DNA of 64,000 nt. It comes from Crambe crambe (Eukaryota > Porifera > Demospongiae > Poecilosclerida > Crambeidae). Shown here one piece after another: positions 1-64,000 of the stretch (its first letter is position 1; every line of letters begins with the position of its first letter). A model generated the notes under the pieces. The model was not told the origin of the DNA and ran no database searches. It saw only the letters and a program-made list of their open reading frames with translations. Position numbers and translations under genes: made by a program. Where the stretch lies: contig OZ004586.1 of the NCBI GenBank assembly GCA_963924555.1, positions 1,488,001 to 1,552,000 on the forward strand. The letters run 5' to 3'.

Positions 1-90
1 AGCTACCCAATTGACCATAAAATAAAAGGCATTGGAGATCCGTGTCCAGAAAATTTAGTTGTACTGACTCGATCCACAGTGGTCTTCTGA
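1..90 (+). CDS. 3' end of a Death-SH2 family gene (partial)
   Basis: Frame 1 reads from the window edge to TGA at 88-90. It gives the SH2 C-terminal signature SYPIDHKIKGIGDPC, matching RYPIDHRINGIGDPC near the end of the SH2 exon at 2074-2533. The downstream sequence (gatgcatgcacacac) also matches the 3' flank of that gene, so this is the previous member of a tandem array. The tail after the SH2 core ends in VVF and has no CAAX box. Everything upstream lies outside the window, so a Death domain is only inferred from the paralogues. Confidence 0.75.
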   Translation, partial: SYPIDHKIKGIGDPCPENLVVLTRSTVVF

Positions 91-684
91 TGACTCTAAC
101 TTGTCGTATTATTAGGATGCATGCACACACTTTGTGTACTGTTGTTACTGCAGTTTCATTGTCGTTAAAATTTTTTCATTAGTTGCTACTTATATCTGAT
201 TTCATACTTATTTTTGTGTGTGTTAACTAACTCTTTTAGCATTAAATTTCATTGTCAGATTATTATTACCACTACTGCTACTTCTTGTGTATTAACCCAT
301 GACATTATTATGTCATAGTATCTATAGCTATAGGTTCTAGGAATGTGTATGAATGGGAGAACATGACCTGAACTAATGCATATAGCAAGTGTGCCACTTG
401 TTTACTCACTTGCAAGAGGTATTGTTTGTTGATACATGCAGTTTTAATATCTTGAGCATGCTCCAAGCTGTTTGGTTACAGTCTGAAAATTCTTTGGGCA
501 CTAATTGTGTTGTGTTGTGTGCATTATCCAAGCTGATCTAAGCTGTTTAATGAGTACAAGAAATTAGCTAAGATCACATTGACAGGTTTGAATGTAAACA
601 ACAATCGTGTGTTGTAGTCACTTTAAATGGCTCTCTGTATGCATGAAGTACATAGTAATTATAGAGTAAAGGTAGTCAGTCAAG
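91..684. other. Intergenic region between Death-SH2 genes
   Basis: No coding signal seen. The last ~130 bases resemble the sequence before the next family member (2760-3057), including a match around 'attgacaggtttgaa', so the promoter region was copied with the gene. No clear TATA box or other element can be assigned. Confidence 0.5.
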
Positions 685-2533
685 ATGGCACAAGCAATGG
701 ATACAAGTAAGATAGCAAAGTACTAGATTGCTCATTATTTACTGATTGAAATTTAATATCCCAATAGCTATTGAGAAAGTTAATTCAGCAATTGATGTGC
801 TAAGTAAGTTAAATTCTGATGGTAGCTCATAGTGCATGAAAGACCATGATTGAGAAAGTTAATTCAGCAACTGATGTTTTAAGTAAGTGATCAATTTTGG
901 CAGCATTAAAGGCCATAATGAAATAGTGTCCAAGTATTATAGGGTATTATTTCAACAGATGAAGATGACTTATTTGATATCATGGAAGAATTAGAGTCCA
1001 TGGTTTCCAAGTGGAGAACCATAGGGACAGCTTTGGGCTTGAAGCAAGATGTCCTGGAAAGCATATGCCACACTGAACACAACGATCAAATGCAGATGAC
1101 CAAAATGCTTACTGAATGGTTAAGGAGGAACTATGATACACAGAGATTTGGTTTGCCTACATGGGAGAAATTGGTGGAAGCAATAAAAGCCAGAACTGGT
1201 GGAGGTAACACAGCACTCGCTCAGAGAATAGCAGAGAAGCACTTAGGTAAAAAAGAAATGGCTTAAGTCTGTATGCATCTTTTCTCCATGGTGATGCCAT
1301 AGTAATGGGAGACATGCTCTTTAGACAAATACTATTTTTCAAGGCTGCCTTAGATCCCGTTGCTATGTGGTTGCTATGTGCATTAAATCAGCAAGTGTGC
1401 ACTAATTCTGTAGGAGTGCACTAATTTTGTAGGAGTGCACATACTATTTTTCAAGGCTGCCATAGTCACTGTCACTGTGGAGAAAAGATCTTTATTGCTA
1501 CTTAAATGAGGTTTATTTATACAGTCATGATTGCTAGTTATCCAGAGCCACAACCAAGAGTAACTCCATTATCAGCTCAGTCTGAAGAAGAGTAAGTAAT
1601 AATCGTGCCCTAAGAAAATAAATTAATCCTCACTTTCCATGCATGAAGCCCTTCAAAGGGGAACCATTTCTTATGCTGTTGCTTCAAGACCACACCTAAG
1701 ACCTCTACCAATCCTATAATGTCGGTATCTCACTGTGAACCGTATGTTAAATAAATAAAATTAAAAATTCAATAGTACACTTAGTGAATAAACGAGTGTT
1801 AGTTAGCTATTTTCAATGTTCATGGTGATATTCAACAATGAAAATTAATCACATGAATATTAATTACCTTGTGTAAAATAGTGTAAAAGCTAATTACAAG
1901 TAAGCTGTAACAACATCATTATATATCATCCAATTTACAGCTTGTGTATCAAACCTGGCTGCATTGGGGGGGGGGGGGGGAGGGGGGGGAGGGGGGAGGG
2001 GGGTAGTAACCCGTTGTCTAGGTATTCCATATAAACAGGTGTCAAGGCAGCTATTTTGTCCCTCCAAATGCAGCTTAACCAGTGAAAGGATAGAAATAGC
2101 AGTTCCTTCATGGGCACTTCAAGATATCAAGAATCACCCCAGCTACCATGGTGCCATGACTGGAGCAGAAGCAGAAGAAAGGCTGAAGCAACATGGTGGC
2201 AACTGCTACCTCATACGATACAGTGATGCCAATGAGGTGTATGTCCTCTCAGTGATGAGAAGAATCGACAAAGCCAGTGTAATGGAACCAATATCAGCAC
2301 ATTTCAAGCTTAACATTATCAAAGGAAATCCTGAAGGGAATACATATGAAATTGAAGGAACAGAGAAGAAGTTTGATGATATTTCAGAGTTGCTGCATTA
2401 TTACCATAGGTACCCAATTGACCATAGAATAAATGGCATTGGAGATCCCTGTTCATGCAATTCCTCATACAATTCCTTATGCAATTCCTCACTAGACCTA
2501 GATGCTAAGACTCTATACTATACACCATTATAA
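685..2533 (+). CDS. Death domain + SH2 domain adaptor (gene 1)
   Basis: Five exons: 685-706, 768-803, 959-1246, 1525-1591, 2074-2533. All junctions use GT/AG and the phases agree, giving about 290 aa. The start ATG sits in the context tcaagATGGCACAAGC, shared by three paralogues. Residues ~20-115 form a Death domain (SKWRTIGTALGLKQDVLES, then PTWEKLV, then GNTALAQRIAEKH). A short Pro/Ser linker follows. The SH2 domain starts near residue 160: YHGAMTGAEAEERL, then CYLIRYS carrying the phosphotyrosine-binding arginine, then AHF with the betaD histidine. The last 25 residues are Ser/Asn/Tyr-rich with no CAAX. Death folds assemble oligomers and SH2 binds phosphotyrosine, so an adaptor role is inferred. 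No catalytic domain is seen. The last intron has a G-rich tract (1967-2004) before an acceptor with a good pyrimidine tract. Confidence 0.85.
849..882 (+). pseudogene. Decayed tandem copy of exon 2 of gene 1
   Basis: Bases 849-882 repeat exon 2 of gene 1 (encoding IEKVNSA-DVL) almost exactly, including the downstream gtaag donor. The preceding base pattern is accatg instead of an AG acceptor, so the copy probably cannot be spliced in. It lies in intron 2 of gene 1. Confidence 0.65.
1967..2004. repeat. G-rich tract in the last intron of gene 1
   Basis: Nearly pure G interrupted by single A residues. It could form a quadruplex and is error-prone in assembly. A polyglycine reading here is an artefact, because the real SH2 exon acceptor is at 2072-2073. 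Confidence 0.8.
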
Positions 2534-2948
2534 AGTATCAAGAGTCATGCTTGTTATAATTATTAGGATGCATGCACACACTTTTTGTACTATTGCCACT
2601 GTATTTTTTAGTTGAACTTTGTACTTACTTGCTTACTCATTTTTCTGTTTGTGTCTCATAGTTCTATTAACTATACCAAACCGCTTGGAGCACATGCATG
2701 CTCAAGATAATCTACATGCAATACCTCTGATCACGTTGTGCATTAATTAAATCCAAACTGTTATGTTACTATAACAAGTAAGAAAGCAGGTAAAATGACA
2801 TTGACAGGTTTGAAAGTAAATATCATAATGATAAGTTGAAAGTAAACAACACAACATCAAAGAACAGTCATGCATTGTATTATAAGCAATCACTTCAACT
2901 GTGTATATGTATATGTACTAAGTGGTTTCAGGGGCTCTCTGTAAAAGT

Positions 2949-3020
2949 GTATGTATGTATGTATGTATGTATGTATGTATGTATGTATGTATGTATGTAT
3001 GTATGTATGTATGTATGTAT
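2949..3020. repeat. (GTAT)n microsatellite
   Basis: About 18 uninterrupted copies of the tetranucleotide gtat, about 40 bases upstream of the start codon of the second complete Death-SH2 gene. The matching promoter at 25.7 kb lacks it. Copy number may vary between individuals. Confidence 0.95.
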
Positions 3021-3057
3021 ATACTATAATAGAGTGGAGACTAGCTAATCAGTCAAG

Positions 3058-4550
3058 ATGGTACAAGCAATGGATACAAGTAAGATAGCAAAGTAGCTAG
3101 TAGATTGCTCGTTATTTACTGTATCCTATAAAATAGCTATTGAGCAAGTTAATTCAGCAACTGATGTGTTAAGTAAGTTACAGTATTCTGATCAATTTTA
3201 TGGTAGCTCATAGTGCATGAAAGACCACATGTTAGTGTGTTACCAGAGACTCTAATGGTATTATTCCAACAGATGAAGATGATTTATGTGACATCATGGA
3301 AGAATTGGAGTCCATGATTTCCAAGTGGAGAACTATAGGGATGGCTCTGGGCTTGAAGCAAGACGTGCTTGATGCCATAAGCCATGCACATCAAAACGAT
3401 GACCAAATGCTGATGACTAAGATGCTGACTGAGTGGCTGAAGAGGAATTACAATGTGTCTAAATTTGGCAAACCCACGTGGAAGAAGTTGGTAAAAGTAG
3501 TGAAGGCCAGAGTGGGTGGAAACAATACAGCACTAGCTCAAGAAATAGCAAAGAAACACTCAGGTTAAAAAAAGGTAAAGAATTGGAGAAGAATATATTG
3601 TTTGCTTATATGCAGTGACAATAACAAAGAAGATATCAAAGCCAGCGACGCTTAATAGGAAGAAATCAAAGCTGAAAGAATTGTAAGTAGCTATAGGAAA
3701 TCCTTAAATGCTAATCCTTGCATCTTCAAGAGGAAAATACCAAGATGTTAATTATAACAGCATTAGCTATACTACAACAGTATAACATTAGAGACAGAAT
3801 CTCACTTCAGATAGTGATATAATCTCTTCATGTCACTTGAAATTCCATGCAGAAGCTCAAAGGTGACCTGCTTCAGCTCCTGTTTTAAGGCTAGAGAACA
3901 TGAGTCTATGCCATTGGGTGATCAACAAAATGGCAAACAAGCTTCATCTGAAGGCACAATCACTCCTACAGATAGCATCCCTCCAATGTCCATATCACCC
4001 CTTGATCTTTCTCCTGAACATACTAGTACCAGGTAAACATAAAAACATTTTGTGGAATATGGAATGGGCATATTCAATTATCTATACCATGCATGTAATA
4101 ATATTAGCCTCATAAAGTGGGGCCTGGGTATGAGGCTAGAAATTATAATACTCTCTCTACAGACCAATAAGGTCAGCAGTTGCCTCTTGGCAGCTCGAAG
4201 ACATCAAGCACCACCCAAGTTACAATGGATCCATGACAGGGAAGAAAGCAGAGCTCAGACTCCAACAGCATGGAGGAAACTGCTACCTCATTCGATACAG
4301 CGAGGCTAACTCAACCTACGTCCTTTCAGTTATGAAGAGATCGGCAGAGTACAAGAACGGACTAAAAGCAGCTCATTTTCAACTCAATGTCATAAAGGGG
4401 ATTGGTTTCAACGAGTATGAAGTAAGGGGCTCCGAGAAGACCTTTTACGACATCTTCGAGTTGCTTGAATACTACCAGAAAAATCCAGTGGATCACTCAA
4501 TACAGAGTATCGGAGAAGCTTGCCCCATGCAAAGAGATAGTTGCATATAA
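3058..4550 (+). CDS. Death domain + SH2 domain adaptor (gene 2)
   Basis: Six exons: 3058-3079, 3137-3172, 3273-3563, 3616-3682, 3853-4032, 4163-4550. The phases agree throughout, giving about 327 aa. Exons 1, 2 and 4 have exactly the sizes of their gene 1 counterparts (22, 36 and 67 bases). The Death domain reads SKWRTIGMALGLKQDVLDA ... GKPTWKKLVK ... GNNTALAQEIAKKHS. A very basic exon follows (KPATLNRKKSKLKE), then a Ser/Pro/Thr-rich linker exon absent from gene 1. The SH2 domain has YNGSMTGKKAELRL, CYLIRYS (binding arginine kept) and AHFQLNVI. The C-terminus is QRDSCI, with a near-terminal cysteine but not a CAAX box. The donor after exon 3 is the weaker gttaaa; not splicing there would end the protein after the Death domain (GGT TAA), which could give a Death-only isoform. 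A decayed duplicate lies at 25.8-27.2 kb. Confidence 0.87.
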
Positions 4551-5397: not shown

Positions 5398-7201
5398 ATG
5401 GACATACGTAGCTGTCACTGCCTTACGTATCAACCCATGAGCATAGCTACATGATGATTTTGACTATGATCCATAATGCAGGTGACTATAATGAAGCCAT
5501 CCGAATACGAAATATTGATCACAGCAGGCAGCCATACAACACCTATCCAGCCAATTACCCACCAAGAGCTGGTTTAGGAGGTATGTTGATGCACTGGTAT
5601 AGTTATGAGACCATACTAGCATGTGAAATGTTCAACTTCATGCCCCTTACCCATCTCATTAGCCTTATCCATGCAGGAAAGGCTTTTTGTTGCATGAATA
5701 TTTTCATTCTTTATTATTACAGACAGCCCTTATCGACATCAAGAACGAGGTAATAAATGTGTGTTATGTTTAACAGGACAAATCTCATGGTATTGGATCA
5801 TACTGAGCTCAATCAAAAGAAGCTAATGAGCCTGTCCATAGGAAAGGTTTTTTGTTGTTATATTTTCGTTCTTTAGCTATTATTACAGAGTATGATGACA
5901 ACCATTATCAACATCGAGACCGAGGTAATAAATAATGTCACTCTGTGTTATTTTAACAGGACAGATCTCAAATACTACAATACTGTCAAATACTATATAC
6001 TATTGTTAGTAGGCAATGAGGCTTTTTGTTGTTGTATGTTATTACAGAGTATGATGATAACCTTCATCGACATCAAAACCGAGGTGATAAATAATGTCAT
6101 CACACGTTGTATTATTTTTATGGAATTCCATCATTTTGAAGGTCCAAGAGAACCTCATGCCATTCCTGGAGAAAATGTATGTGAAATAGCTAGAAATCAT
6201 AATAAGGTAGCCTAGTCATCTCCTCATACACAGTACTGCAGGGGCCCAGAAGTATACACTCGCCAGTTTACTGGACCAGAAAGTAAGTCCCATCATAATA
6301 ATCATATGATAAAAAACAAGCAAGCAAGCAAACAAACCAATAAACCACTGTTATTCTAAATAATGCCCACCCCAGCAAGTATTCTATGGTGTGTGTTATT
6401 TAGACCTCTTTACCACGTGCATATCTGTAAAGCTCGGCTATTATTATTGAGGTACGTAGTACGTAGCTATAGCATCTTTTATACACATACAGTTCAATCA
6501 CAACTTGCTGACCAAAGACGAAGAGTTGAATCTGAAATTGTAGAGAGTCCCAGTCCCGCAGTAATACAACCAGCCGATGACCCGTCACCACAACATGTTC
6601 CACCCAATGGCTATGATCCGTCACTACAACCCACTCCACCAGATGGCAACGACACCCATATGCATAACAGCAGTCGACCTGGAATTGTACATAAGTATAA
6701 CATCAGGCTAGCTTAGCCCTAGAACGAACCCAATTGATCTCTATACTATATTGTAGTGTTTCTACCTGTACTGACACAGATACTAGCTATAACTGATGTA
6801 TTTGCATTATCCTACAGAGAACTGCATTAATTACATCCGTAGTTCCAGAAAACAGTTTAATGGGAGAGCATCAAAGCTATCATAACAATATCACTGGAGA
6901 AGAGGCTGTACGTAGGCTCAGGAGGCACGGTGGAAATTGCTACCTCACTCATTACAGCGAAATTCAAATGTGCTATATATTATCTGTGTATCAGAGAACC
7001 CCAACACGTACGACAAAACACTTCAAGATTATTTGTACAGGTGGAGAGTGCAGGATTGATGGGAAGATGAAAACATTTGGAGATATTGATCAGCTACTGG
7101 TGCACTATGAGGGGAATAGAATTGATCCAGCATTTCCAAATATAGGGGAACGCTGCACAGAAAATTGCCCACATCATAGGAGCACCTGTATCATACTGTA
7201 A
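5398..7201 (+). CDS. Microexon SH2 protein with CIIL CAAX box; binding Arg replaced by His (gene 3)
   Basis: Proposed exons: 5398-5407, 5482-5580, 5723-5749, 5889-5924, 6048-6083, 6493-6686, 6818-7201. The joined frame is open, about 261 aa. Exons 2-5 are short phase 1-1 exons encoding Tyr/Arg/His-rich pieces (DSPYRHQERG, EYDDNHYQHRDRG, EYDDNLHRHQNRG). Exon 6 is Pro-rich. The terminal exon is an SH2 domain (YHNNITGEEAVRRLRRHGG) ending in CIIL, a CaaL box expected to be geranylgeranylated. The SH2 core reads CYLTHYS: the normally invariant phosphotyrosine-binding arginine is His, whereas the paralogue at 9527-9910 keeps CYLTRYS. The start exon and the donor at 6686 are weak calls. A possible extra exon near 6242-6280 was not placed. 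It may be the 5' part of one gene that can use either this SH2 exon or the one at 9527. Confidence 0.7.
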
Positions 7202-7840: not shown

Positions 7841-9910
7841 TATCTCCTGGCTATGATAATCATCCAGGTGAGTAACTTGTCCACTGATCACACTATTTAT
7901 GGCTAAAATATAACAGATTCTGAGTTGGGCCAGAGATATGTTGATGGTCATGGCTGTATGAAATATTCCCATCGTGTTATGCGAACCATTGACGAAGGAA
8001 ATTCAAAAAAATCATGTGAGTATAATGAATATGCAGAGAGTTAACGTTAGGTAGTTGTATCACCCAATTCAAACAGCTATACATCACAATACTGGCATGG
8101 CAGCAAACTTCCAAGGTATGATGGAATGCCAATCCTATATACAACATTCATTGCATGCATTTTTGTAGATCAATATCACGGGGGCCCAAATGAACGAAGG
8201 TCATCAATTGTATCAACTGGCTCACAAGGTGAAATATAAATTATGCAGTTCTATGAGGTATAGTATCTCTTATCATATTGTGCACACAGCTCGTAGATCC
8301 TCTGTATCGTCATACTCTAGCACATCACAAGGTCAATTATTATTGGTGTCTATATAGCTATATAGTGCAGGGCATAATGCATGGATCATGTGATTAATAA
8401 TGATTACATAATTATTTATACACAGGATACAGCCCTAAACTATCCCAGCCAAATAGGGACTATAGGGAATCAGGTGAGTTTGCTGAGAGTGCAATTCATT
8501 ACGTGTTGTAGTAATGAGTCTATGCAATACTATACTTTACAACAATAAAGGCCTCTTGTATACTTGCTACAGGCAAGTATACAGGCTTGTATACTTGCTA
8601 AATACAGGCTTGTATATATGCACTAAATGCAGACTGGCCAAAACTCTATATAAAGCTATAATAACTGAAGTCCTTAATTACAATTGCACAATTGTACACA
8701 GTGCATAGGGCAGGCGGAGAACCCAGTCGTCATTCCAGACCTCCTGAATTTCCCAATGAGATGAACTATGAAGGTAATGTGAAAGCCATGGAGAGCAACA
8801 TCTAGAAAATGTGACAGTTAGATTCTGTGTGATTTACTTCCAGCATGCAACTATGTCCAAGGTAATCCACCAGCTGCAGTTCCACCAATGCCTCAAAATT
8901 ACCAGCACTACCAAGGTATGATTAACTAAAAGGTTGAGTTAGCAAGTGACTCACCAAATGGATGTAACTGCAATAGGAAATGTTTACTATCATATATGCT
9001 GTACCTTCCAGGTGAGCAGGACAATTACAGACCGACTGGGAGAAGACAGAGGGTTAGTTAATGAACAGGTTTTAGGCAACAGAGTATGATCACACATCCA
9101 CCCATGTAGCAAAATACCAGACTTATAACGCTAGCCGTCCCTGCCGAGAACATACTAGAAAATGAATACGCAGCACTTCCAAACCAGTCAAGTCATCAAG
9201 TGCCATACACCAACAACAGCCTAGGTAATCTTGTAAGCAATGCACACCCTTACTCTATAGGAAATGATATCTTATTTGAATAGCTTCTACGCATGATGCC
9301 AATCACAGACAAAGAGCAGCTAGAGGAGTGGAAGAAATTGAAGAAGATACACAGCCTAAAAGTGTGAGCACAATAATAATAGAGAAACCTCTGATGACAA
9401 GAATGGGAATTCTGATTGAACTTTATAAGATGTAGCTAGTTATAAAGAGTTATATATATTATGTGCACAAGTAAAAATATCAAATCAGATCAGCATAATT
9501 ATGTTCTATCTATAATAATATTACAGCCCACTACTCTCATCACACTAGCAGTTCGTGAAAATGATTTGATGGGAGAGCATGCAAGCTACCACCAAAGCAT
9601 CAGTGGAAAAGAGTCTGAACGTAGGCTCAAGAAGCATGGTGGGAACTGCTACCTCACTCGCTACAGTGAGGTTCAAAAGTGCTACATACTGTCAGTGTAC
9701 CAGAAGACCCCCACATATGTAGTAAAGCATTTTGAAATTGTTACTCAGAACCAAACATACAGCATTAAAGGAGCTGGACGTCAATTCAACTCGATAGATG
9801 AGCTCCTTCAGCACTATGAACGAAATCGACTTGACCCAGCACTGATGACCATTGGTGAATGCTATACACAAGAAAACTATCAACAAAGAAGAGAATGCAT
9901 ATTACTATAA
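7841..9910 (+). CDS. Microexon SH2 protein with CILL CAAX box (gene 4; 5' end unresolved)
   Basis: Twelve exons fit GT/AG and phase: 7841-7867, 7917-8015, 8077-8115, 8169-8228, 8290-8331, 8426-8473, 8702-8773, 8844-8915, 9012-9052, 9110-9224, 9284-9363, 9527-9910. That gives about 359 aa without the start. No start exon was found immediately upstream, so the block may be spliced from the exons at 5.4-6.7 kb. The linker is low-complexity, rich in Ser, Asn, Gln, Pro and Tyr. Many exons end in Gln-Gly split by the intron (NFQG, GSQG, HYQG). The SH2 exon reads YHQSISGKESERRLKKHGG, CYLTRYS, KHFEIV and ends RRECILL, a CaaL prenylation box after basic residues. A minisatellite follows the stop. Confidence 0.8.
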
Positions 9911-10349: not shown

Positions 10350-10351
<2 letters not shown>

Positions 10352-10697: not shown

Positions 10698-12843
10698 ATG
10701 GCAAGTGGTGGTAAGTCATGTACTTATTATAGGTATGAGGCAGTGCCTAATGTTATAGGACAGTGATACAGAACACGGTTGAGCCATATGACTATGTGTG
10801 GCTGTAGCTGCATTTTATTAGGGCAATGTGCAGCATTATTGACAGCGAGCGAGCAAGTATTCTTTAGTGCTTCAACTCTTTAGAAGATTTTGCTGTTGAA
10901 TTTACATGTAGGCTAGAGCCTCTACAACTACTACCATAGCAATGTGCAGCATTTGACAGTGAGCAATTAAAGTAGCTGATAGGCTCTAGTGCTTGATAAT
11001 GCTGTAAGAGACAAGAGTCGTGTAAGTGGTGGTTCCAACCAGGAACATAGAAAGCTGTAAATGCTTACCACAAGCACTTAGATAAGCCAAGTGCTACTAG
11101 ACTAATTGGAGCAGTTTGGAGTGTAGACCTACGTAGATATAGATCTATATATATATATTTTACAATCTCAATGAGTCATGACCTGAGAGTCAGCTCGCTC
11201 ACTAAATTAGCAATTGAAGGAGCATAGCTATATCAATGATAAAGTAATCACATAAGCTATAGGTCTATAAATAAACAATGTCATGTTTTACTAGTTATAC
11301 CGTGAAAGAGCTGGATTTGAAACTATCCTGACTCTTAGCTATTATTACTGGTAAAAATGAACTGAGGAAAATTGTTCCCCTTAATTGCATTCACATGTGG
11401 TAGTATTACATAAAGTGAGCATGGACTTAACTCTCATGATATATATTCATTTATCAGGAAGTTCTCAGGGTCTCAGTCAGGGTATGTGAGATTATATCAG
11501 CTATGATACTTAATTACTTCAATTGTACCACCAAAGTAATCCCTATACCCGAGTAAAGTGAGTCCCCAAAAGGTAAAGATTGCTCTAGGGGCTCTTGGGG
11601 TTACCTGACACCACTATATTGGCATTCCATGCATGCATGCATGCATGCAGAACACCCAGCAGCAGGTACATTTTATGGTACACTGTATTGATATGCAAGA
11701 ACTCACTAATCCATATAACATATCACTAATTAGGAACCACAAACTTTGGACAGGGTGATAACTACGGATGTCATAGTAAGTTTGCTAGATAATGTGGTAA
11801 TTCTTATCTGCAATATGAAACATTTCCAGTGAGAGAGACCAATGACATTCAAACAGCACCAATTCAAGGTAGCTATGTATATTTAGCAATGGAATATAGA
11901 GTAATTATGATACAATCACAAGAAAAGTGGGAGTACACAATGGAGCATTATGAATGAAGATTTATTTTATGATATCTATTCCCACTATAAGGTCATCGTA
12001 ATGACTTTATACCATTTGGATCACCAGATCAAGGTAGTTATAACTAAGAGCATGCAATTAGCTGGCTATAGTGTGTTATCATTATGCCTTCATTGTAGAA
12101 AGAGATGAAGATCATGGTGCAGCAATTTTTTCGAAACCTGGAAGAAGTGTATGATAACTTATTATGTTAATTGCTCCTTTCTAATCAAATTCATGCTGTA
12201 GATGACAACGTTGCTGAAAATAACTCCATGTGCAACAGAAGAAATTGACCACATATCCTACCAAGGAGCGATAACTGGAAATGAAGCTGAAATGAAGCTG
12301 AAGAGAGAAGGAGAGCCTTGTTACCTTACAAGGTTTAGCATTAACTATCAACAGCACATACTCTCAATAATGACCAAGAATGAAGAGGGAACATTCAAAT
12401 TTAGTCACATTGCAATGAAAATCAGTGCTGACAATTATGAAATAGAGGGCACAGGAAATCCATTTGGAAATATTCAAGATATGCTCTCACACTATGAAGA
12501 AAATCCAATACACAATAATACTACAAGTATATCAAGCATTGGGAGACCATGTTCTAGAGATGGACAAAGACAAACAATGCTGCAACATGAACAGCATCAC
12601 CAGCCCAAATCCAAAGAAGAAAAAAAGGATGAGATCGTTCAAGGTTTTATGACTATGCATGAAAAGTATCTTGAAGAGCAAAAAAATATGTTGGAGAAAC
12701 AACATGAAATGATGGAGAAAAACTTTCAGCAACAGCTCAAAGAACAGCGTCAAGACTTTGAGAAGAAATTAGAACAGCAGCAAAAAGATTTTGAACAAAA
12801 ATTTGAAGCAAAAGAGAAGAAGAGTAAATGCACTCTAATGTAG
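10698..12843 (+). CDS. Microexon SH2 - coiled coil - CAAX (CTLM) protein (gene E)
   Basis: Eight exons: 10698-10710, 11458-11481, 11651-11665, 11734-11775, 11830-11868, 11992-12033, 12099-12148, 12202-12843. The frame is consistent, 288 aa. The start ATGGCAAGTGGTG|gtaagt encodes MASG. Five tiny phase 1-1 exons (one only 15 bases) encode Gly/Gln/Asn-rich linker. The SH2 begins near residue 90 (YQGAITGNEAEMKLKREGEP), with CYLTRFS keeping the binding arginine and SHIAMKI holding the betaD His. About 85 residues of charged coiled coil follow (many KQHEMMEKN- and QQQKDFEQ-type heptads), ending KKSKCTLM. CaaM after lysines predicts farnesylation and membrane attachment. Copies of the coil-CAAX tail and its 3' UTR recur at 43.07 and 44.6 kb. 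Confidence 0.85.
10821..11205. mobile_element. MITE-like element in intron 1 of gene E
   Basis: It begins gggcaatgtgcagcat next to 'cagcgagcgagcaag' and ends near 'gagtcagctcgctcac'. The same modules occur in reverse at 14549-17410 and in forward copies near 41571 and 42530. No coding capacity. A non-autonomous element is inferred; exact ends and target duplication were not settled. Confidence 0.6.
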
Positions 12844-30986: not shown

Positions 30987-31009
30987 AAATGACAATTCTG
31001 TGATGATTA

Positions 31010-31245
31010 ACTGTTAAGAGTGATTATACCTGTTAGAGTGATTATCTGTTAGAGTGATTACCTGTTAGAGTGATTAACTCTTAAGAGTGATTACCTGTTA
31101 AGAGTGATTACCTGTTAAGAGTGATTACCTGTTAAGAGTGATTAAATGTTAAGAGTGATTACCGGCAATTACCTGTTAAGAGTGATTACCTATTAGAGTG
31201 ATTAACTGTTAAGTGATTACCTGAAACTGTTAAGAGTGTTTAACT
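31010..31245. repeat. Minisatellite, unit gttaagagtgattacct
   Basis: About a dozen 17-base units after the CILL stop of gene 4', expanded relative to the copy at 9930-10045. Confidence 0.9.
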
Positions 31246-47130: not shown

Positions 47131-47347
47131 ATAAGTTCATTGTGTATGGTATTATCGACCAAAAATCCATGTAGCTATGTGTTCCAATACACTAGCACAC
47201 AGTGCAATAATTAAAGATAATAATATGATGACACAGTCAGTGCAATTGATGACACAGGCAGTGTTATGATGACATTACATGGTGACATTACATGTGACAT
47301 TATACAGTTTGTGTTATGATAAACAATGTAATTAGCAATTTCCACTA
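47131..47347 (+). promoter_or_regulatory. Upstream region of CARD gene A, conserved in gene B
   Basis: Imperfect repeats of 'tgatgacacag.cagtg' and 'atggtgacatta' plus 'aacaatgtaattagcaattt' just before the ATG are also found at 52390-52499 before gene B. Conservation suggests shared promoter sequence; no specific factor site is claimed. Confidence 0.45.
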
Positions 47348-50300: not shown

Positions 50301-51210
50301 ATACTGTCCTATGGACTTTGACCTGCCATCCCTACTTAGAGAGTGCTACCGCACTCTCTGATAATATGTGCAGTCAAGACTGAAAATGAGAATAGACTTT
50401 TTCTTTGCTACATAGCACACTTATGTAGGTATATTGTATTGTGTATCAAGTTGCCTCAGTGTATTTTATATTCTGTAGTGCTTGGTGGGGACAGTGATGA
50501 AGGCATGCCATCAAGTGACTCTGAGTCATCGCCAAATGAGATGTTGTATCAGAAGAGGCGTCTAATCAGTGCCTATGCTTATGTCGCTCCACATTTCAAT
50601 CAGCAGTACTACTCAAGAGGTTAATAGCTATATCGATTAAAATCTGAGTGCAGAACATTATAAGTGATGCAAAAAAAGAAAAAGAAAAAAAGATGAGTAG
50701 ATATTAAACTTTAGATGTACTCACTTCTTCTAACTACTGCATGTATTGCCTTGGGGGTGAACCATTGTAAAACAAATGAATGGATGCATGCGTTTATACT
50801 AATAGTTCAGTGCCTCCAACATGTGAACTTTGATTTCAATATAAAATGCTCCCATTTTCAGTATTTTATCATGAATTATAAGCCATTTTATAAGTATAAA
50901 ATAGCTAGTTTAAATTTCCGTTTTTTTTGTTGTTGTTTTTTTGAAAATTCATGGTCAAATTTCAGTAAAAATACTGATGAATCAGTATGGTTGGAGGCTC
51001 TGATAGTTGTTCATTACTGTATTCCATGCAGAGAACGAAGATCGACAGAAGTTTCAAAAATTGCAGAATTACTTCACGGAAAATCTTGAATGGAAACTCT
51101 TTGAGCAGCGTCAGCAGTATCATGAATTGATCCAGGTTTTTCAGCAGCAGCTTGTCAGGCACCACCAGAAACTCATCAGCATCAGCTTGCTGAAATATTG
51201 GAGTTACTGA
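47348..51210 (+). CDS. CARD-like + basic microexons + truncated coiled coil (gene A)
   Basis: Exons: 47348-47707, 47770-47833, 47882-47944, 48068-48109, 48257-48310, 48570-48632, 50479-50619, 51032-51210; 321 aa. Exon 1 encodes a helical Death-fold domain best read as a CARD: LVELTADITSEIAADPLAIS, then LRAKGF, KASKLLEQVTRKVKL, FHEFVKILSEF, WLKDIVESI. Small phase 1-1 exons are Lys/Arg-rich (QKRRKKKSLSS, RRNHSERKKSPSA). The last exon starts the coil (NEDRQKFQKLQNYF) but a one-base deletion relative to gene B (caccaccagaaactc versus caccaccaggaaactc) leads to TGA at 51208-51210. Later indels also break the remaining coil (to ~51540). A second possible start is ATG 47375. A ~1.7 kb insertion with a long palindrome lies in the intron before exon 7. 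Confidence 0.75.
48654..49092. mobile_element. Near-perfect 212-base inverted repeat (foldback element)
   Basis: Arms 48654-48865 and 48881-49092 are almost exact reverse complements around a 15-base loop (ttggcccttgatcat). One visible mismatch is gtacgagatac versus gtacaagatac. The arms contain agtagggatgctattataac and gcagtatggcccaaaaatcg. Relatives occur at 25330-25480 and 49480-49590. Transcribed in the gene A intron it would form a long hairpin RNA. Confidence 0.9.
49093..50359. other. Rest of the insertion specific to gene A
   Basis: No gene recognised. With the palindrome it forms a block (~48651-50359) absent from gene B, where 53810 runs straight into 53820. It ends in a hairpin 'agagagtgctaccgcactctct' split as agagagtgc/gcactctct at 50338-50359. 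Related hairpin tips occur at 34283-34310 and 52238-52264. Confidence 0.6.
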
Positions 51211-52499
51211 AGCAGTTTCAAATGAGACCCCTACTACCGCCACAAGATCCCATGCAGTCGAACGAAGTCCTCCAGTGTCAGCTTGCTGAACAACAGGAGC
51301 TGATAAAGCAGCTTCAAGATAAGGTCCAGAGCCAGAAAGCTGAACAGGAGAAGATAATAAAGCAACTCCAAGGAAGGATTCTAACACAACCAAGATAATG
51401 ATTCCAAAAATTCTGCACAGCAAAAAGCTCTCCAGTGCCAGCTTGCCAAACGACAAGAGTTAATTGCTCAGCTTCGACAGAGGCTTTCCCTCACACAACT
51501 CAGAGAAGCTTCATGGAGTGATCAACATGATTCGCCACAACCAGTTGTATGGATGGCTGTGTATGGTTCAAAAAAGTTCAGTAACAAGAGAATGAACTTC
51601 AGTCAAGTAACCCCTTAGCTACCCGAGCTTAAAGTTCACGTATTGTAGCTATGTAGTTCATTGGAGGTTTCATCAATGAGCCGAAAATTTCTGGAAGGAC
51701 TAATACTATCTATACAGTTTATAATAAGATTGTCAGTGATCTAATTTTGTATAATTTTTGGCCTTTACTGATATGTACCTGATATACTGTTGCATATAAC
51801 CAGAGTAGTACCTAGGGTTTATGCTCTGAGCATCGAGAGACCAACATCAAGAGAGAAGTTAATGACTGATTCTCTAGTCTATTGGGGCAGGGCATAAAAT
51901 GTCTGCCATGTTGTAGGTTGAAAACTAGCAAGTTGGAAAATGAGGTGCTAATTTTGAACATGTCGAGTTAAAGGTAAAGGATTATAGTGCAGTCAATTTT
52001 GAGTATAGCTAGTGTGGTATTGAAATAAGTTGATGATGATGAACGATCAGATGAAAACAGCAGCTAGGGATGGCATGGATTCCATTGGATTAATACTTAG
52101 TATTTTCTTTCATAACTCCAGAATACTTCCCTCCTACAGTTAGCAACTCCTAACTTGAAGAGAGAACACCTTCAATGTGCTAGGACTCAAGTGGAAGAGC
52201 AGAAGACAAAGCAGTATCATTTTACAGCGACTTTTAAACTTAGAGAGTACTATATCATACTCTCTGATATCAGAAATGAATGTCCATACCTTGGGGTTCA
52301 TCAAGTTCATTGTCACTGTATGACAATTACCATGTTCAACATAAAAAATCCACATACAATCAATATGGTCACTAATTAAAGACTTAAGCAACACTATGAT
52401 GACACAGACAGTGCTATGGTGACATTGCATGGTGACATTATGCGTTATGATAACACAACATAGTGTCAAATGAGCACAATGTAATTAGCAATTTCATTA
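51211..52499. other. Broken coil remainder and intergenic region
   Basis: 51211-51543 is the out-of-frame continuation of the gene A coil (LQCQLAEQQELIKQLQDKV and later pieces). 51544-52390 shows no gene; a hairpin lies at 52238-52264. 52390-52499 matches the gene A upstream region. Confidence 0.6.
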
Positions 52500-55044
52500 A
52501 TGGGACCATGCAAATATCAGCCAAAGATGTCCACTAAAGAGAATATAGAATATACTACGCTAGTCGAGCTCACAGCAGATATAACTTCGGAGATAGCTGC
52601 GGATCCTTTGGCTATTTCTGAGAAACTGAGAGCCAAAGGCTTCATTGCAGAAGCACAGCACAATGCAGCAAGATCTGATGGCATAACCGACCAAGAAAAA
52701 GCCAGTAAATTATTGGAACAAGTCACTAGGAAAGTCAAACTCCGTCGTGAAAGGTTTCATGAATTTGTGAAAATCCTTAGTGAGTTCATGTGGTTGAAAG
52801 ATATCGTGGAGTCTATACAGGAGAAACTTGAACACAAAATATCCCAACAGGACACTGAGGTAAGCAGTTGGCTATTGTGTGCACAGATTTAATCTTGAAA
52901 AACATTAATGAACCAGGATTTATCACCAAACAATTCAGATGAAGGATCAGATTTCTCTGACAAGGAGTATAAGAAAAAAGGTATGTTAATTTCACAGTAG
53001 CTAGCTAGCTTAACAAATCACTATACAGTTGTTCAGAAAAGAAGAAAGAAGAAATCACTTTCCTCTGAGCTAGATTTCAACTCCCTACCAGGTACGTTGC
53101 AGAAGTAGACTTTTTTACCAATAGATTTGTGAAGGTGGTAGCTATCTGGGAATTAGAACTCACTAGCATATCGATGTGGTAATCTTTCAGTAATTTCATT
53201 TATTAAAATAACAGTCAGAAGGAACCATAGTGAGAGGAAAAAAAGTCCATCAGCAGGTTAGTATAAGTTGAATTGTATAATTATTATAGCTATGATTGTA
53301 GTCAACAATGAACTAACCTTTAGAGGTGTGATAATTAGGGGTACGTCACAGGGTTCTCCCCTTATTGAATAGACCCCTGATACAATTCCTGTTGTAACTG
53401 TAGCCACAGTGAGGCGGAATAAAAGTGAGAAACTACCGATTCAAGCAGCAGACCGAGGTTTGTTTCATCCAGTCATACATTTCGGTGGAACCTCTGAATA
53501 ATGAACATACTTGGGACCCAACCTTTAGTCTTTTATAGAGAGGTTGTACTCTCTTTTTCGAAGGCATTTTGTATAAAGTGTAGATACAAAAGTACTTTTA
53601 GATTGTCCTTTGTTGAGAAGTTTGTCCTCTTTCGGAATTTCCATTATCTGAGGTTCCACTGTAACTACAAGAATGATATGAAAAAAGAGTTGTTTTAAAA
53701 AAATCAAATTTCTCACTTTCTTATAGTGCGTGCGAAATATCGGAGGAAAAAACGATGCAGTATTTTGCTAAGGGACCACTCTAGAAGAGGTATATCTATA
53801 GCTATATATACATAATATGTGCAGTCAAGACTGAAAATGAGAATAGACTTTTTCTTTGCTACATAGCACACTTATGTATGTATATTGTATTGTGTATCAA
53901 GTTGCCTCAGTGTATTTTATATTCTGTAGTGCTTGGTGGGGACAGTGATGAAGGCATGCCATCAAGTGACTCTGAGTCATCATCGCCAAATGAGATGTTG
54001 TATCAGAAGAGGCGTCCAATCAGTGCCTATGCTTATGTCGCTCCACATTTCAATCAACAGTACTACTCAAGAGGTTATAATAGCTAGCTATATCAATTAA
54101 AATCTGAGTGCAGAACATTATAAGTGATGCAAAAAAAAAAGAAAAAGAAAAAAAGATGAGTAGATATTACACTTTAGATGTACTCACTTCTTCTAACTAC
54201 TGCATGTATTGCCTTGGGGGTGAACCATTGTAAAACAAATGAATGGATGCATGCGTTTATACTAATAGTTCAGTGCCTCCAACATGTGAACTTTGATTTC
54301 AATATAAAATGCTCCCATTTTCAGTATTTTATCATGAATTATCAGCCATTTTATAAGTATAAAATAGCTAGTTTAAATTTCCGTTTTTTTGTTTTTTTTT
54401 TGAAAATTCATGGTCAAATTTCAGTAAAAATACTGATGAATCAGTATGGTTGGAGGCTCTGATAGTTATTCATTACTGTATTCCATGCAGAGAATGAAGA
54501 TCGACAGAAGTTTCAAAAATTGCAGAATTACTTCACGGAAAATCTTGAATGGAAACTCTTTGAGCAGCGTCAGCAGTATCATGAGGAATTGATCCAGGTT
54601 TTTCAGCAGCAGCTTGTCAGGCACCACCAGGAAACTCATCAGCATCAGCTTGCCGAAATATTGGAGTTACTGAAGCAGTTTCAAATGAGACCTCTACTAC
54701 CGCCACAAGATCCCATGCAGTCGAACGAAGTTCTCCAGCGTCAGCTTGCTGAACAACAGGAACTGATAAAGCAGCTTCAAGATAAGGTTCAGTGCCAGAA
54801 AGCTGAACAGGAGAAGATGATAAAGCAACTTCAAGGAAGGATTCCAACACAACCACAAGACAACGATTCCAAAAATTCTACACAGCAAAAAGCTCTCCAG
54901 CGCCAGCTTGCCGAACGACAAGAGTTAATTGCTCAGCTTCAAAAGAGGCTTTCCCCCAAAGAAGCTTCATGGAGTGATCAACAGAATTTGTCACAACCAG
55001 TTGAGCAGCTGGAAGCTCTGCTAAAGCAGCTTCAGAGACCATAG
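52500..55044 (+). CDS. CARD-like + basic microexons + coiled coil (gene B, intact)
   Basis: Exons: 52500-52859, 52917-52980, 53029-53091, 53215-53256, 53404-53457, 53727-53789, 53930-54073, 54491-55044; 447 aa. Every junction is GT/AG and the phases fit. Start ATG 52500, with ATG 52527 (MSTKEN) as an alternative. The N-terminal ~120 residues form the CARD-like domain, almost identical to gene A. The middle is basic, then an acidic/Ser/Tyr exon (GDSDEGMPSSDSESSSPNEM ... YAYVAPHFNQQYYSR). The last exon is ~180 residues of Gln/Leu/Lys coiled coil in repeated blocks (LQRQLAEQQELIKQLQ, LQRQLAERQELIAQLQ), ending LLKQLQRP without CAAX. CARD plus coiled coil suggests an oligomerising scaffold, as in CARD-coiled coil signalling proteins; that function is inferred. 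Gene A is its tandem, damaged duplicate. Confidence 0.82.
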
Positions 55045-55470: not shown

Positions 55471-57831
55471 TAGTATAGCTGTTTAGCTTAAAAAATAAAA
55501 GGTTATGTGCATTTAACGATAAAAGCGTGAAACTTTGTATGTAGTTTCTATACATAATAAAGTTATTTTTCAGACGTAGAACCACCTCAGAATTTGACCT
55601 TTAGTGACCTCTAGGAGTAAATTAATTGTTTTTACCAAAAAAATTTCCAAATGTACATAATATGGGTATCAAATTAAAGGTCTCAATGTAACAAATAATT
55701 TGGTACTTGTATTATATCCATATTTCATTCTGTTCAAATGAATTAGTGAAATATTGTAGGTTGCAAGTTGTGTTTAAACATGGTACAGCTTTAACATGTT
55801 CCTGAACAAGAACAAAGAGGAGTACACTTCAGTGCAGCCTTCAAATATTTACACTTCCCTCTACACCTTTTCTTGCAACTGCAGTGAATGAGCTCATGAC
55901 AAGACTCAGAATCTCAGAATACTCAGTAGTCCACAAAGGTTTCCATCCCACACTGTCTTTTTGCCATCCCCAGTCTATTGGGCATGGAAGACTAGGATCC
56001 AGACACAGGACACAGGGCTCTGTTCCAGCAATTTGCTTGATAGCTTGCTTGTTTGATATGTTGTACAAGTGCAGCCTGTGTTGGTGGTAAGTTCTCTAAG
56101 CTACGTAACTTCTGTGTAAACAGTTGCTTCCTAGCATTGTTGATACTCACTTGATCACTATACAAATCGTTCCAACACAGACATTACAGAATCACTAATA
56201 CATGTAACTTCCATCAAAAGGAGGTGTTCTAATGTTTCAGTAATGTCAGGAAAACTTGCCAAAATTTCCAAGCTCTTTCCTCTTCCACTAAAAGATGAGA
56301 TAGTATCACATTCTGTAAATGCATGAAAAATTCCTGGGGTTCTAACTATACGTGTGACAGCATGAAGTTTCAGTGCTACATAACCGGAACAATGCTCAGA
56401 GCTGTGACAAACAGTAGAAGTGGAATGCAGAGCTCGTGTGTGTTTGACACTGTTAAACATCAGGAGCTGAGAAATGTAATAGGATGCTTTTGTATCGGCT
56501 GTAGTGACAAGCTGAGTTTGGTGCTTTATGTTGGGACGTACCTTCTGACAAGAGCGAATAATGACTGTGGTACAGCTTTTTGCAAGGATTCTTCACTGAA
56601 TGTACCGAAAAGGCTTGGCTGAACATTTCTTTTCTTGCTACTTTTGTGCTGCTTGTGCCAAATGCATAGTATCATTATCACTGTCATGATAACAAGCTTT
56701 CTTAAGAGAATCACCAATATCAAATGACATTTCTCCCCAGAAAGCAACCTCAGTTTTAATCTTGATGTATGAACATGACCTTCAAATACAACTCCCAGTT
56801 CTGGCATTTCTAGCTCTGTTATACAATGCTACAAGACAAGGGCAATCATGTCACCTTGGTGCCAATTTGGCTAAGAGAGAAGTATCTTCAAGCTCTAGTG
56901 TTCATTTGCGAATTTTCCTGTCGATATCGTAGGTAAAAGCATTGTGTAGACATGCAGAACCAGCTGATTCATCTCAGAAGAAGCATCTGTCCTCACACTC
57001 TCATTGTTAGAACAAGTCTGCATAGGCAGTGACTTAGCCATCTCCTCTCACTCTTCACATCTGTAAGTCTTTTTTCCAGCCACTCAAGCTTGGTCTGGTT
57101 AAATATTACACGACATGCTTTATGCCAACAAGCATGTTGCCTCATCATCATAGCTTCAATACCATCTCCATCATCTAGCCTTTTATCTAGTGGCATGCAA
57201 TCATGCATCTGAAACTGAATGAGGTGCTCTGCTAATGATTTGTAGCTCACTACCAATAGGTGCTTTGGACAACCTAGCTGGATATTCCAAATCTGTTTTG
57301 TGTTCTTTTGATAAAGGACACAAAACCTCCAGTCTGTGATGTAAGGTTTCTTGAGAGGCATAGGTGTAGAAGCATCCACCAATGAATGCCGCTTTGCCAT
57401 AGCAACAGAGCCTTTCAATAATCTAGATCATCTTACCATGTGTGCCAACTGAATTCTATTTGCCAGCCTGCAAGTACAAACCACTATACAGAAATACGCT
57501 AATAAACAAGATTTCGACACATTTCAAGGTATAAAAATGGTCATAACTTTAAAACCAAATTAATTATGAACTTGATTCAAGTTTCAAAATGTTCCTTAGA
57601 ACATGACCATTCAAATGATATCCAAAATGGGTAGATTACAGTGATATGTCAAGATTTAATAGAGAAATTTGCTATTCTTGTATGCAAATTAGCTAACACA
57701 TAAATTTACCTAAATGTCAAATCCAAGATGGTTCTACGTCAAAAAGTATAGTCCATTATGTGTAGAATTAATGTGCAAAGTTTCACGATTTTATCGCGAA
57801 GTGCACATTACTTTTGCTATCCAGCTATACT
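55471..57831 (-). mobile_element. 2.36 kb TIR transposon with minus-strand ORFs
   Basis: The left end TAGTATAGCTG...aggttatgtgcattt..cgataaaa.cgtgaaactttg and the right end are diverged inverted repeats of about 120 bases, including 'gacgtagaaccacctcag' against its reverse near 57728-57745. A TA target duplication is possible. The internal coding frames run on the minus strand. Family not identified. Confidence 0.75.
56158..57418 (-). pseudogene. Decayed element-encoded protein, minus strand
   Basis: Three minus-strand pieces: 56993-57418 (MAKRHSLVD, ITDWRFCVLYQK, then ACWHKACRVIFNQTKLEWLE), 56526-56807, and 56158-56460 (GIFHAFTECDTISSFSGRGK). The HAFT.CDT.S.F.G.GK motif recalls a family of repeated, transposon-like ORFs in invertebrate genomes; that is from memory and unverified. 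Frames are interrupted. A CxxC-like start and conserved WHK/FN motifs may mark a zinc-binding N-terminus. Function unknown. Confidence 0.55.
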
Positions 57832-57833
57832 AA

Positions 57834-59362: not shown

Positions 59363-59661
59363 CTGTGTAATTTACAAGCATGCACATTCACTTGTTAGCC
59401 GTGTGGATTATCAGAAGGTCTGAACCCATGAAACATTCACGAGTTCAATATTATGTATTAACCTCTTACTGCATGTGTAAAAGTCATTGTGCATGTACTA
59501 GTTGACTGACCAAGATTATCTAAAACCGTATGAAGTTTTGATACACATAATACCTCACACATGCACTTATGCAATGTTATTCAAACTGAGCAAAAATTGA
59601 AAACCCAGTGTACATAAATACTGCTAAATATGGTCATGATCACTAGGAAGTGAAGAGCTGC

Positions 59662-60457
59662 ATGAACATGGCTACCAAGGAGAATATAGAATATCTTGTT
59701 TTACATGACCTTGCAGCAGATATTGTTTCAGAAATTGCTGAAGATCCTGTGGCCATTTCAGCCAAGTAATTAGAAGCGGGATTTTTTCCAGAAGCTCAAC
59801 ATAATTCAATAAAAAAGCAAGAAAATGACGATAAGTCAAAGGCCAATGAATTGGTGGAGCTGGTGAAAAAAAAAGTCAGACTAAATCCTAAACGATTCAA
59901 GGAATTTATCAATATCCTCAGTGAGTTCCCTTGGCTCAAAGATATCGTGGAATTGATGCGCAGGAAAGAGCTTGATGAGCGTACTAAAGAGTTTGATAAG
60001 CATTAATCTGGTGAGTCATTATATATTAATTCAGGAAAAATTACAGCATTGATGTTTAACATATGCTATACAGCACTCTGACAAGGATCATGGAAATAGT
60101 ATTGGGCAGCGGTCATTTTCTTGTAAGATCACAAAAACTTCAGTTGATAAGAGCTTTCTATGTATAACCATATACATGTAAACTGATCTAGGTGGTACCA
60201 CTGACCAGAGGCCTCAAAAGTTGAAAAGGAATACACTGCAGCCTATTAAAGAGGGCCAACAGGGAGAAAGTGAGAAGGTGGAAGCTCTTAGTCGCCGGAT
60301 AGATCAACAAGAAAGGGAAATAAGGCAACTTAAGGAAGATAGGCAACTTCTATAAGCAGAGCCTCCACAACAGTCTGAAGAAGAAGATCAATCAAGGCTG
60401 ACAGAAAATGAACATGTGAATGAGATTAGTAAAGAGAGGAAATGTATTTTATCATAA
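59662..60457 (+). pseudogene. CARD-like + coiled coil + CAAX (CILS), two internal stops (gene C)
   Basis: First exon 59662-~60010: MNMATKENIEYLVLHDLAAD then IVSEIAEDPVAISAK, then TAA at 59767-59769, after which the same frame continues EAGFFPEAQHNS ... FINILSEF ... WLKDIVELM. A last exon from about 60192 reads GTTDQRPQKLKRN, EKVEALSRRIDQQEREIRQL, then TAA at 60353-60355, and goes on to KERKCILS before the final stop (60455-60457). The CILS box predicts farnesylation. Two nonsense changes with intact flanking frames indicate a recent pseudogene or, less likely, read-through. Confidence 0.82.
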
Positions 60458-62490: not shown

Positions 62491-62640
62491 TTCAGAGACT
62501 GTAGCTAAAGTTACATGATAACTATTGTTAAACCATTCGGTACAATTTGGTAGTAATTTAACCTTTGAACTCCATTTCATGATGTCATCCAAAGAATGTG
62601 TGTGATTAATGTAGTATGACATAATGCATTAGTTAGCTAT
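62491..62640 (+). other. Resumed 3' flank of the split gene B-like copy
   Basis: 'ttacatgataac', 'ggtacaatttggtagtaattt' and 'tgatgtcatccaaagaatg' match 55050-55140 after the stop of gene B. Confidence 0.75.
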
Positions 62641-62762
62641 ACAGGATAAACCATTCACTTAGCAGTTTACTTTGAGTGTAAAAGCTTTATTTTTAGTACT
62701 ACAAGGTGAAGAAACATAAGTGAAGAGTTTAGACCTGCAAGAACACGGCTACCAAGGAGAGT

Positions 62763-63349
62763 ATGGAATATCCTGTTTTACATGACCTTGCAGCAGATTC
62801 TGACAAGAATCCGATTCCTGGAAACAGTATTAAGCAGCAGCTATCTTCTGGTAAGATCTCAGAAGCTTCTATAGCTATGACAGCTTTTTTATGCATAATC
62901 ATATAACTAATCTAGGTGTTATCACTGACCAGAGGCATCAAAAGTTGGAAAATATTGTTAGAAAACAAGTTGAACGGAGATTTGCTAGCAATCTTGAGTC
63001 AGTGCATCGGGAGCTACTGGAGTTATTTCAAAAGTATATCACTGAACTTCCAATAAGTCAATTGGAGAATTTGAAAAAAAATCTTGAACCTACACTGCAA
63101 TCTAAAGAGGACCAAAAAAGAGTGAGTGAAGAGGTGGAAGCTCTTAGGCAACAGATAGCGCGACAAGAGGAGCAAATAAAGCAACTTAGGAGCGAAATGC
63201 AGCTCACAGAAGAGGATACACAAGAAGAGACTCCACAACAATCCGAAGAAGAAGATCAAACAAAGCTGGTAGAAAGTCTACGCCAAAAGATTGACCAGCA
63301 AGAGAAAGAGATAGAGAGGCTGAATAAGAAGAAATGTATCATATTATAA
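62763..63349 (+). CDS. CARD-deleted coiled coil + CAAX (CIIL) protein (gene D)
   Basis: Two exons, 62763-62850 and 62916-63349, joined in phase 1; 173 aa. The first exon starts MEYPVLHDLAAD, the opening of the CARD exon in gene C, but then jumps straight to SDKNPIPGNSIKQQLSS, homologous to the second exon of gene C (~60070-60120). The rest of the CARD is deleted. The last exon is a Glu/Lys/Gln/Leu coiled coil (VITDQRHQKLENIVRKQVER ... EEVEALRQQIARQEEQIKQL) and ends NKKKCIIL, a lysine-preceded CaaL prenylation box. The coil would allow dimerisation at a membrane, possibly as a dominant partner of full-length relatives (inference). Confidence 0.75.
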
Positions 63350-63783
63350 TGTTATGGGAACTGTATAAAGTTGGTGCAGCTAAGTAGTGTGCTACAATTA
63401 TAGTAATTAAGGAAATAGTATGTTAGTTGCCAATTTAAATGAAGTCTTACATACTTTTCAGTTGTAAACATTCTACATGTGTGAATCAGCTAGTTATATT
63501 TCGTGTCTTAATCTTTGAACTACATTTCATGTCATCCAAAGAATGCGTGGGTTATTCAGTACACGTGTATCATAATACAAGCCTCATAGTAACATAATAC
63601 CTGTATGTCACTAATGAATATCACAGACATGTACACAACTAGCCCTGCAGTCCTGTAACTTAATTATGCATGTTCCTTTGTATGTATTACATCATTACAA
63701 TAAGATCGCCATGGTTTCATACTACAAATGGAGCACTCACTTCCTGTTGAAGCTGTCCAGTGGCATCACACAACACTCAAAAT
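63350..63783. other. 3' flank of gene D
   Basis: Contains a copy of the gene B 3' flank around 63510-63550 ('tcatccaaagaatgcgtgg'). No gene seen. Confidence 0.5.
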
Positions 63784-63980
63784 CCTATTCCGATACAACC
63801 ACAAGACACTGCACAACAATTATGCATAAAAAGTCTCCAGCACCAGCTTGCCAAACAAGAGTCAATAGCTCAGCTTCAGCTTTTCCCCACACAACTCCTA
63901 GAAGCTTCACTGAGCAATCAAGAGAATTCGCCTCAACCGGTTGAGCAGCTGGAAGCTAAAGTAGCTTCAGGGACTGTAGC
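63784..63980 (+). pseudogene. Gene B-like coil fragment
   Basis: Resembles 54840-55035: 'accacaagaca', then coding like LQHQLAKQESIAQLQ, and 'gttgagcagctggaagct'. Small deletions break the frame before the tail. No upstream exons in this copy. Confidence 0.75.
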
Positions 63981-64000
63981 CACAGTTATGTATAACTATT

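Follow-up and report, generated by a model that had tools for sequence, protein, structure and literature searches.

The DNA analysed here (the window: 64,000 nucleotides, C9:1488001-1552000 of the genome of the sponge Crambe crambe, 143.1 Mb in 119 contigs) covers the left-hand portion of a tandem gene array in which an exon for a Death domain is followed by an exon for an SH2 domain. The two domains are recognizable by curated profiles and stand in a constant order, two of the genes have an in-phase exon structure, the phosphate-binding arginine of the SH2 domain is kept, and the Death and SH2 exons form a mosaic of separate histories. The array probably encodes small non-enzymatic adaptors between phosphotyrosine sites and Death-fold assemblies.

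Window and flanks were examined together (152 kb, C9:1470001-1622000) with iterated Death and SH2 profiles. The array so delimited spans about 137 kb on one strand (C9:1476879-1614382) and extends about 62 kb past the end of the window; on the minus strand of the 152 kb there were zero matches to the array Death or SH2 profiles. After merging of fragments it holds 22 Death and 32 SH2 copies. An SH2 copy directly follows the Death copy in 21 of 22 cases (shuffle mean 13.0; none of 20,000 shuffles as high), and in 19 of the 22 the SH2 domain that goes with the Death exon is free of stops. An earlier interpretation of the window, made from its letters alone and referred to here as the sequence-only reading, had put the number of copies at fourteen or more; 15 are counted in the window, namely four Death-SH2 genes (among them one truncated where the window begins and the broken copy at 25962-27215), eight SH2 copies without a Death exon and three CARD-like copies.

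Domain assignments are based on the curated Pfam cut-offs (Death PF00531, 22.6 bits; SH2 PF00017, 21 bits; CARD PF00619, 23.9 bits). The first Pfam-A scan covered ten window open reading frames (ORFs), and ORFs 30612 and 41906 were scanned separately. Death is above its cut-off at 943-1263 (29.5 bits, 8e-7) and 3236-3565 (30.7 bits, 3.5e-7), as it is in five of five further array copies (23.4-29.7 bits). SH2 is above its cut-off in nine window ORFs (1904, 4149, 6797, 9446, 12202, 23529, 45892, 30612 and 41906; 23.6-43.6 bits, with 3.2e-11 for ORF 30612 and 1.6e-6 for ORF 41906), and the array SH2 profile matches SHP2 at 1.3e-15. The FLVR-type phosphate-binding Arg is present in 26 of 27 SH2 copies, and the Ser next to it in all 27. 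The Death and SH2 domains that the sequence-only reading had called from motifs are therefore borne out by the profile searches it proposed. Its CARD-like domain fared differently in fold and in sequence. The predicted structure (predicted local distance difference test, pLDDT, 92.4) aligns with solved CARDs, but ORF 47336-47731 gave no Death-fold match in the Pfam-A scan, two of six relatives match Pfam CARD at E up to 1, weakly (best E 0.036), the exons reach at best 14.2 of the required 23.9 bits, and none of 51 genome matches of the CARD-like profile coincides with any of 22 Pfam CARD matches. The domain thus has a CARD-like predicted fold and a sequence below the Pfam CARD cut-off.

The fusion of Death and SH2 in one gene is supported by two manual gene models, by the place of the splice donor and by the order of the domains, as the sequence-only reading had supposed. 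In genes A (five exons) and B (six exons), every intron is bounded by GT and AG, every join is in phase, and the first two exons measure 22 and 36 nucleotides in both genes. A phase-1 GT lies 1-7 nucleotides behind the Death domain in 21 of 22 copies, and counts as evidence because its position is constant (+1, +4 or +7). When the full product of gene B was scanned with Pfam, Death and SH2 alone were above cut-off, which for this one product agrees with the earlier statement that no enzyme is attached; the same product gave no TRADD-N match at E 0.1.

The histories of the Death and SH2 exons differ from each other. The alignment set consisted of the 19 units in which neither the Death nor the SH2 domain contains a stop; the unit statistics exclude the Death exons of the broken window copy (C9:1513995), of 1571418 (no SH2 behind it) and of 1572948 (truncated SH2). 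Over the 19 units Death and SH2 distances correlate (Mantel r 0.53, 0/10,000), as would be expected of joined genes. In ten units (u08-u10 and u12-u18), the Death exons are 86-94% identical in DNA regardless of the SH2 that follows. These ten units fall into three SH2 classes, and the mean synonymous divergence (dS) of their Death exons is 0.26 for same-class pairs (17 pairs) and 0.27 for different-class pairs (28 pairs); that of their SH2 exons is 0.35 (0.10-0.65) within classes and 1.36 (0.97-2.14) between them. Unit u11 has the reverse pattern, with SH2 dS of 0.29 to u13 and 0.33 to u15, and Death dS of 2.07 to u15 and saturated to u13. Approximately unbiased (AU) tests reject the SH2 tree with the Death data (p 4e-11) and the Death tree with the SH2 data (p 8.5e-64). 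Block ends were compared in 14 pairs, eight of them of different class; in five of these eight the main match is confined to 324-358 bp around the Death exon, and in the other three (u12/u15, u08/u12 and u15/u16) it runs for 408-595 bp.

This pattern fits exon-wise gene conversion or shuffling. Because synonymous divergence is unequal within the same genes, selection at the protein level would not suffice to explain it, and gene conversion or unequal crossing-over would; the mosaic can have arisen by either, with block duplication also at work. It is very improbable that the Death exons are similar merely through stronger protein-level constraint, without exchange: the mean protein distance over the 19 units is indeed smaller for Death (0.37) than for SH2 (0.48), but synonymous divergence differs likewise, u11 goes the other way, and the data of each exon reject the tree of the other. 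The mosaic was missed by the sequence-only reading, as were tails specific to gene type.

Those tails divide the array. CAAX ends (CIIL, CILL, CTLM) were read in the window ORFs ending at 7201, 9910, 12843, 24341 and 30986, all SH2-only, and in the coiled-coil-like ORF ending at 63349. Among the 19 Death-SH2 tails, the class I PDZ ligand pattern occurs in eight, the looser class II pattern in six and CAAX in one (KKCVIS); the expectation from composition is 3.4% for class I and 8.1% for class II (this scoring covered 18 of the 19 tails; u16, blank there, was separately read as SLYN and fits neither pattern). CAAX, proposed earlier as one of the parts, therefore holds for six window ORF ends, mainly on SH2-only genes, but not for most Death-SH2 genes.

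Site models (own implementation, fixed trees) gave omega of 0.26 for Death and 0.28 for SH2, which indicates that the proteins are maintained. Model M8 fits better than M7 (p 1e-4 for Death and 0.004 for SH2), yet the gain is not read as positive selection because the extra class has omega close to 1 (1.01 and 1.04, respectively); the test for positive selection that had been proposed for Death and SH2 thus found, in these models, no class clearly above omega 1. Clustering, tandem duplication and pseudogenes, by comparison, are all present in the window as described earlier. The segment 2786-10033, which contains gene B and two SH2-CAAX ORFs, recurs piecewise at 25543-31111 with 74-86% identity and one of the pieces inverted, the CARD-like unit 47247-51547 is repeated in two pieces at 52397-55003 (94.6-94.7% identical), and broken copies lie at 25962-27215, 37289-37456 and 59647-60003.

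The main type of product would consist of an N-terminal Death domain, a short low-complexity linker, an SH2 domain and a short tail (often PDZ-ligand-like, once CAAX). Alongside it would stand SH2, either by itself or together with a coiled-coil-like stretch and a CAAX tail, as well as CARD-like exons that neighbour coiled-coil-like ORFs (one with a CAAX end). In such an adaptor the SH2 domain would dock on a phosphotyrosine of a receptor or scaffold, the tail would position the protein at the membrane or at a PDZ scaffold, and the Death domain would nucleate or join a Death-fold assembly, turning tyrosine-kinase input into Death-fold output. Similar Death exons in genes with different SH2 classes would pair a common output with several inputs, and the array would evolve module by module. 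Under the adaptor reading we infer expression, phosphotyrosine binding, assembly, lipidation or PDZ binding, and a physiological role.

Several points weigh against this reading. Matches of the Death domain to solved structures are weak, some ranking below chance-looking kinase matches, and one of the 27 SH2 copies (6797-7201) has His at the FLVR Arg site. A phase-1 GT is often expected by chance within the 34-nucleotide stretch searched, and several donors score poorly. The PDZ-ligand-like tails are a lead only, because paralogues are not independent; a binomial figure over ten lineages of our own grouping is given no weight. The Death-SH2 products are predicted from genomic DNA, and automatic models, made separately for every unit, connected Death to SH2 in only 14 of 19 units (four were unjoined and one gave no model); since this modelling did not reproduce the manual models of genes A and B, linkers outside these two genes are not reliable. 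The unjoined models would suit Death and SH2 exons that are separate genes, or alternative transcripts, merely lying side by side. This is improbable, as linker exons connect the two domains in phase in genes A and B, the order Death-then-SH2 holds throughout with a single exception, and an upstream in-frame ATG is absent from most of the SH2 exons in Death units, although several have one (for example C9:1555325, 1564465, 1567007, 1586673 and 1610047).

A cluster decaying without present function would account for the broken copies in the window and for the three array Death exons that are broken or have no intact SH2 partner; with an SH2 free of stops beside 19 of the 22 Death exons and omega near 0.27, it is highly unlikely. 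Decoys or negative regulators, which would block signalling by sitting on phosphotyrosine sites or by capping Death-fold assemblies, deserve more weight, as the scanned product has no effector or enzyme domain above cut-off, the products are small, and sequence cannot separate a decoy from a positive adaptor. Nevertheless, purifying selection acts on average on both Death domain and tail, and a decoy would need no more than a plain SH2 (a point of argument only), and we consider this explanation rather unlikely. Signalling adaptors remain the preferred reading. A bolder version of it, offered tentatively and with some doubt, is that of a naturally occurring switchboard, open to expansion, which would lead from tyrosine phosphorylation to Death-fold signalling. 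In it, exon-wise exchange would keep a shared Death output while varying SH2 inputs and membrane or PDZ addresses, and the animal would thereby gain a repertoire of polymorphic adaptors to serve immune or self/non-self decisions.

The same array locus appears to be present in a second assembly. The Death profile, made from an exon alignment, returned 236 proteins from 3459 candidates (120 of them listed), and the SH2 profile, made likewise, 12 from 77; these profiles did better than the spliced product of gene B, for which none of 626 candidates matched at 1e-3. What appears to be a single contig, 894,434 long, is shared by 15 of the 120 listed Death relatives and six of the 12 SH2 relatives, and 19 of these 21 are 91.5-100% identical to array members; the shared contig and the high identity together suggest the same locus. 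The other two are P0131, 70% identical to u01, and P0011, at no more than 64% because its nearest array exon (1572948) is absent from the comparison set. Three Death proteins of the second assembly are 91.5-93% like u02/u03, of which this genome has two such units, a surplus consistent with a different haplotype or individual whose content differs somewhat. The tails RCTTV, RDSCI, KKCVIS and CRIL recur there; the relative of u01 (70% identical) ends in KTTSV where u01 has KTTQV, and P0123 has a different tail. On other contigs lie 105 of the 120 listed Death relatives versus six of the 12 SH2 relatives, so that the Death family is by far the commoner of the two in this search. Apart from the 894,434-long contig none is common to the Death and SH2 listings, and no second species with both exons is among the matches listed. 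The SH2 proteins P0124, P0127 and P0128 (best 50-59% identical to array SH2s) suggest relatives elsewhere; P0128, on a 750-bp contig, is 51% identical to the SH2-CAAX ORFs and likewise ends in CIIL.

Table 1. Death, SH2 and CARD-like copies and associated ORFs, by position in the window
Position	Strand	Feature	Details	Basis
1-90	+	u02, Death-SH2 gene cut by window start	3′ end of SH2 exon	SH2 exon model C9:1487702-1488090, SH2 profile match
685-2533	+	Gene A (u03), Death-linker-SH2	exons 685-706, 768-803, 959-1246, 1546-1591, 2074-2533; 283 amino acids; tail YYTPL	manual in-phase model, Pfam
3058-4550	+	Gene B (u04), Death-linker-SH2	exons 3058-3079, 3137-3172, 3273-3563, 3616-3682, 3877-4032, 4163-4550; 319 amino acids; tail RDSCI	manual in-phase model, Pfam
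6797-7201	+	SH2 ORF without Death exon	end CIIL; His at FLVR Arg site	ORF, Pfam
9446-9910	+	SH2 ORF without Death exon	end CILL	ORF, Pfam
12202-12843	+	SH2, then Glu/Gln/Lys-rich stretch	coiled-coil-like (by eye); end CTLM	ORF, Pfam
23529-24341	+	SH2, then Glu/Gln/Lys-rich stretch	coiled-coil-like (by eye); end CIIL	ORF, Pfam
25962-27215	+	Broken Death-SH2 copy	gene B relative; stops in Death and SH2 parts	local profiles
30612-30986	+	SH2 ORF without Death exon	end CILL	ORF, Pfam
37289-37456	+	SH2 relic		local profiles
41906-42358	+	SH2 ORF without Death exon		ORF, Pfam
45892-46659	+	Degraded SH2 fragment, then one intact SH2		Pfam, local profiles
47336-47734	+	CARD-like exon, copy 1		predicted fold; sequence match weak
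52485-52892	+	CARD-like exon, copy 2	protein 99% identical to copy 1	profile search
54466-55044	+	Coiled-coil-like ORF (by eye)	downstream of CARD copy 2, putative join	ORF; no Pfam match at 0.01
59647-60003	+	CARD-like exon, copy 3	one in-frame TAA	profile search
62855-63349	+	Coiled-coil-like ORF	end CIIL; downstream of CARD copy 3, putative join	ORF

Also within the window, at 56158-57427 on the minus strand, are open frames that by eye resemble a mobile-element relic and have no Pfam match above cut-off. Predicted exons resembling a HECT-type ubiquitin ligase (by eye) lie within the array at C9:1579131-1580551. When the genome was searched with one array Death exon (150 of 586 candidates scored), the top 21 matches were all in the array (query identity 48-100%); the last of the 22 array copies, at 46%, ranked lower, and the remaining matches are at 29-46%. 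The matching SH2 search gave 43 matches, 30 of them inside the array. Genome-wide, Pfam Death gave 965 first-look candidates, and all 150 scored were matches, indicating very many Death exons. A second tandem SH2 cluster is found at C5:1464001-1524000 on the minus strand, with predicted SH2-SH2 products and Kelch-like repeats (by eye) and without a Death exon; CARD-like and Death matches stand about 35 kb from it, at C5:1427255-1430122. Outside the array, Death matches occur 2-3.5 kb upstream of SH2 matches on the same strand at C9:4.31 and 4.56 Mb and at C19:0.27 and 1.74 Mb; these neighbouring matches are possible candidates for further Death-SH2 genes.

In well-studied animals, tyrosine-kinase and Death-fold signalling are linked indirectly. 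A natural family joining both pathways in one small protein, in an early-branching animal, would show a direct route from tyrosine kinases to the Death fold, and one testable with existing assays. Adaptors of the FADD/MyD88 type carry Death with DED or TIR, and those of the GRB2/CRK type SH2 with SH3; the putative array adaptors are likewise small, enzyme-free and would bridge two partners, but neither type is known to combine Death with SH2. A CAAX end is likewise not known in the CARD9/10/11/14 family. In the window, CARD-like exons and coiled-coil-like sequences are neighbouring ORFs, and the putative products differ from that CARD-coiled-coil family (PMC5978004) in being small and in having one CAAX-ended coiled-coil-like ORF.

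In the titles, abstract openings and cited passages of the literature no description of a Death-SH2 array was found; one of these sources gives Death and CARD counts for another sponge (PMC12909245). The passages of PMC8195603 describe 357 Amphimedon proteins with TRADD-N, mostly with an N-terminal Death-like domain and variable C-termini in which SH2 is possible. The present array shares with them the expansion in a sponge, the N-terminal position of the Death-like domain and SH2 as a possible C-terminal part; unlike those proteins, the gene B product gave no TRADD-N match, has only a short linker and leads straight from Death to SH2. Artificial DED-SH2/PTB adaptors, cited in PMC2575513, are reported to redirect tyrosine-kinase signalling to apoptosis, and are counted here as support for the adaptor reading. 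They too are small proteins in which a phosphotyrosine reader is joined to a Death-fold domain; they are engineered and use DED, whereas the array is natural, uses Death and has many copies. Known domains are combined unusually in an array that shows module-wise evolution. A parallel for the latter, described in PMC4852459, is that of the clustered zebrafish NLR-B30.2 genes, in which gene conversion acts differently on two exons. Those genes encode receptors with positive selection reported in B30.2, unlike the putative adaptors of the array, where no positive selection was detected; the exon mosaic is a clean case of module-wise adaptor evolution, paralleling the fish receptors in adaptor-like downstream proteins.

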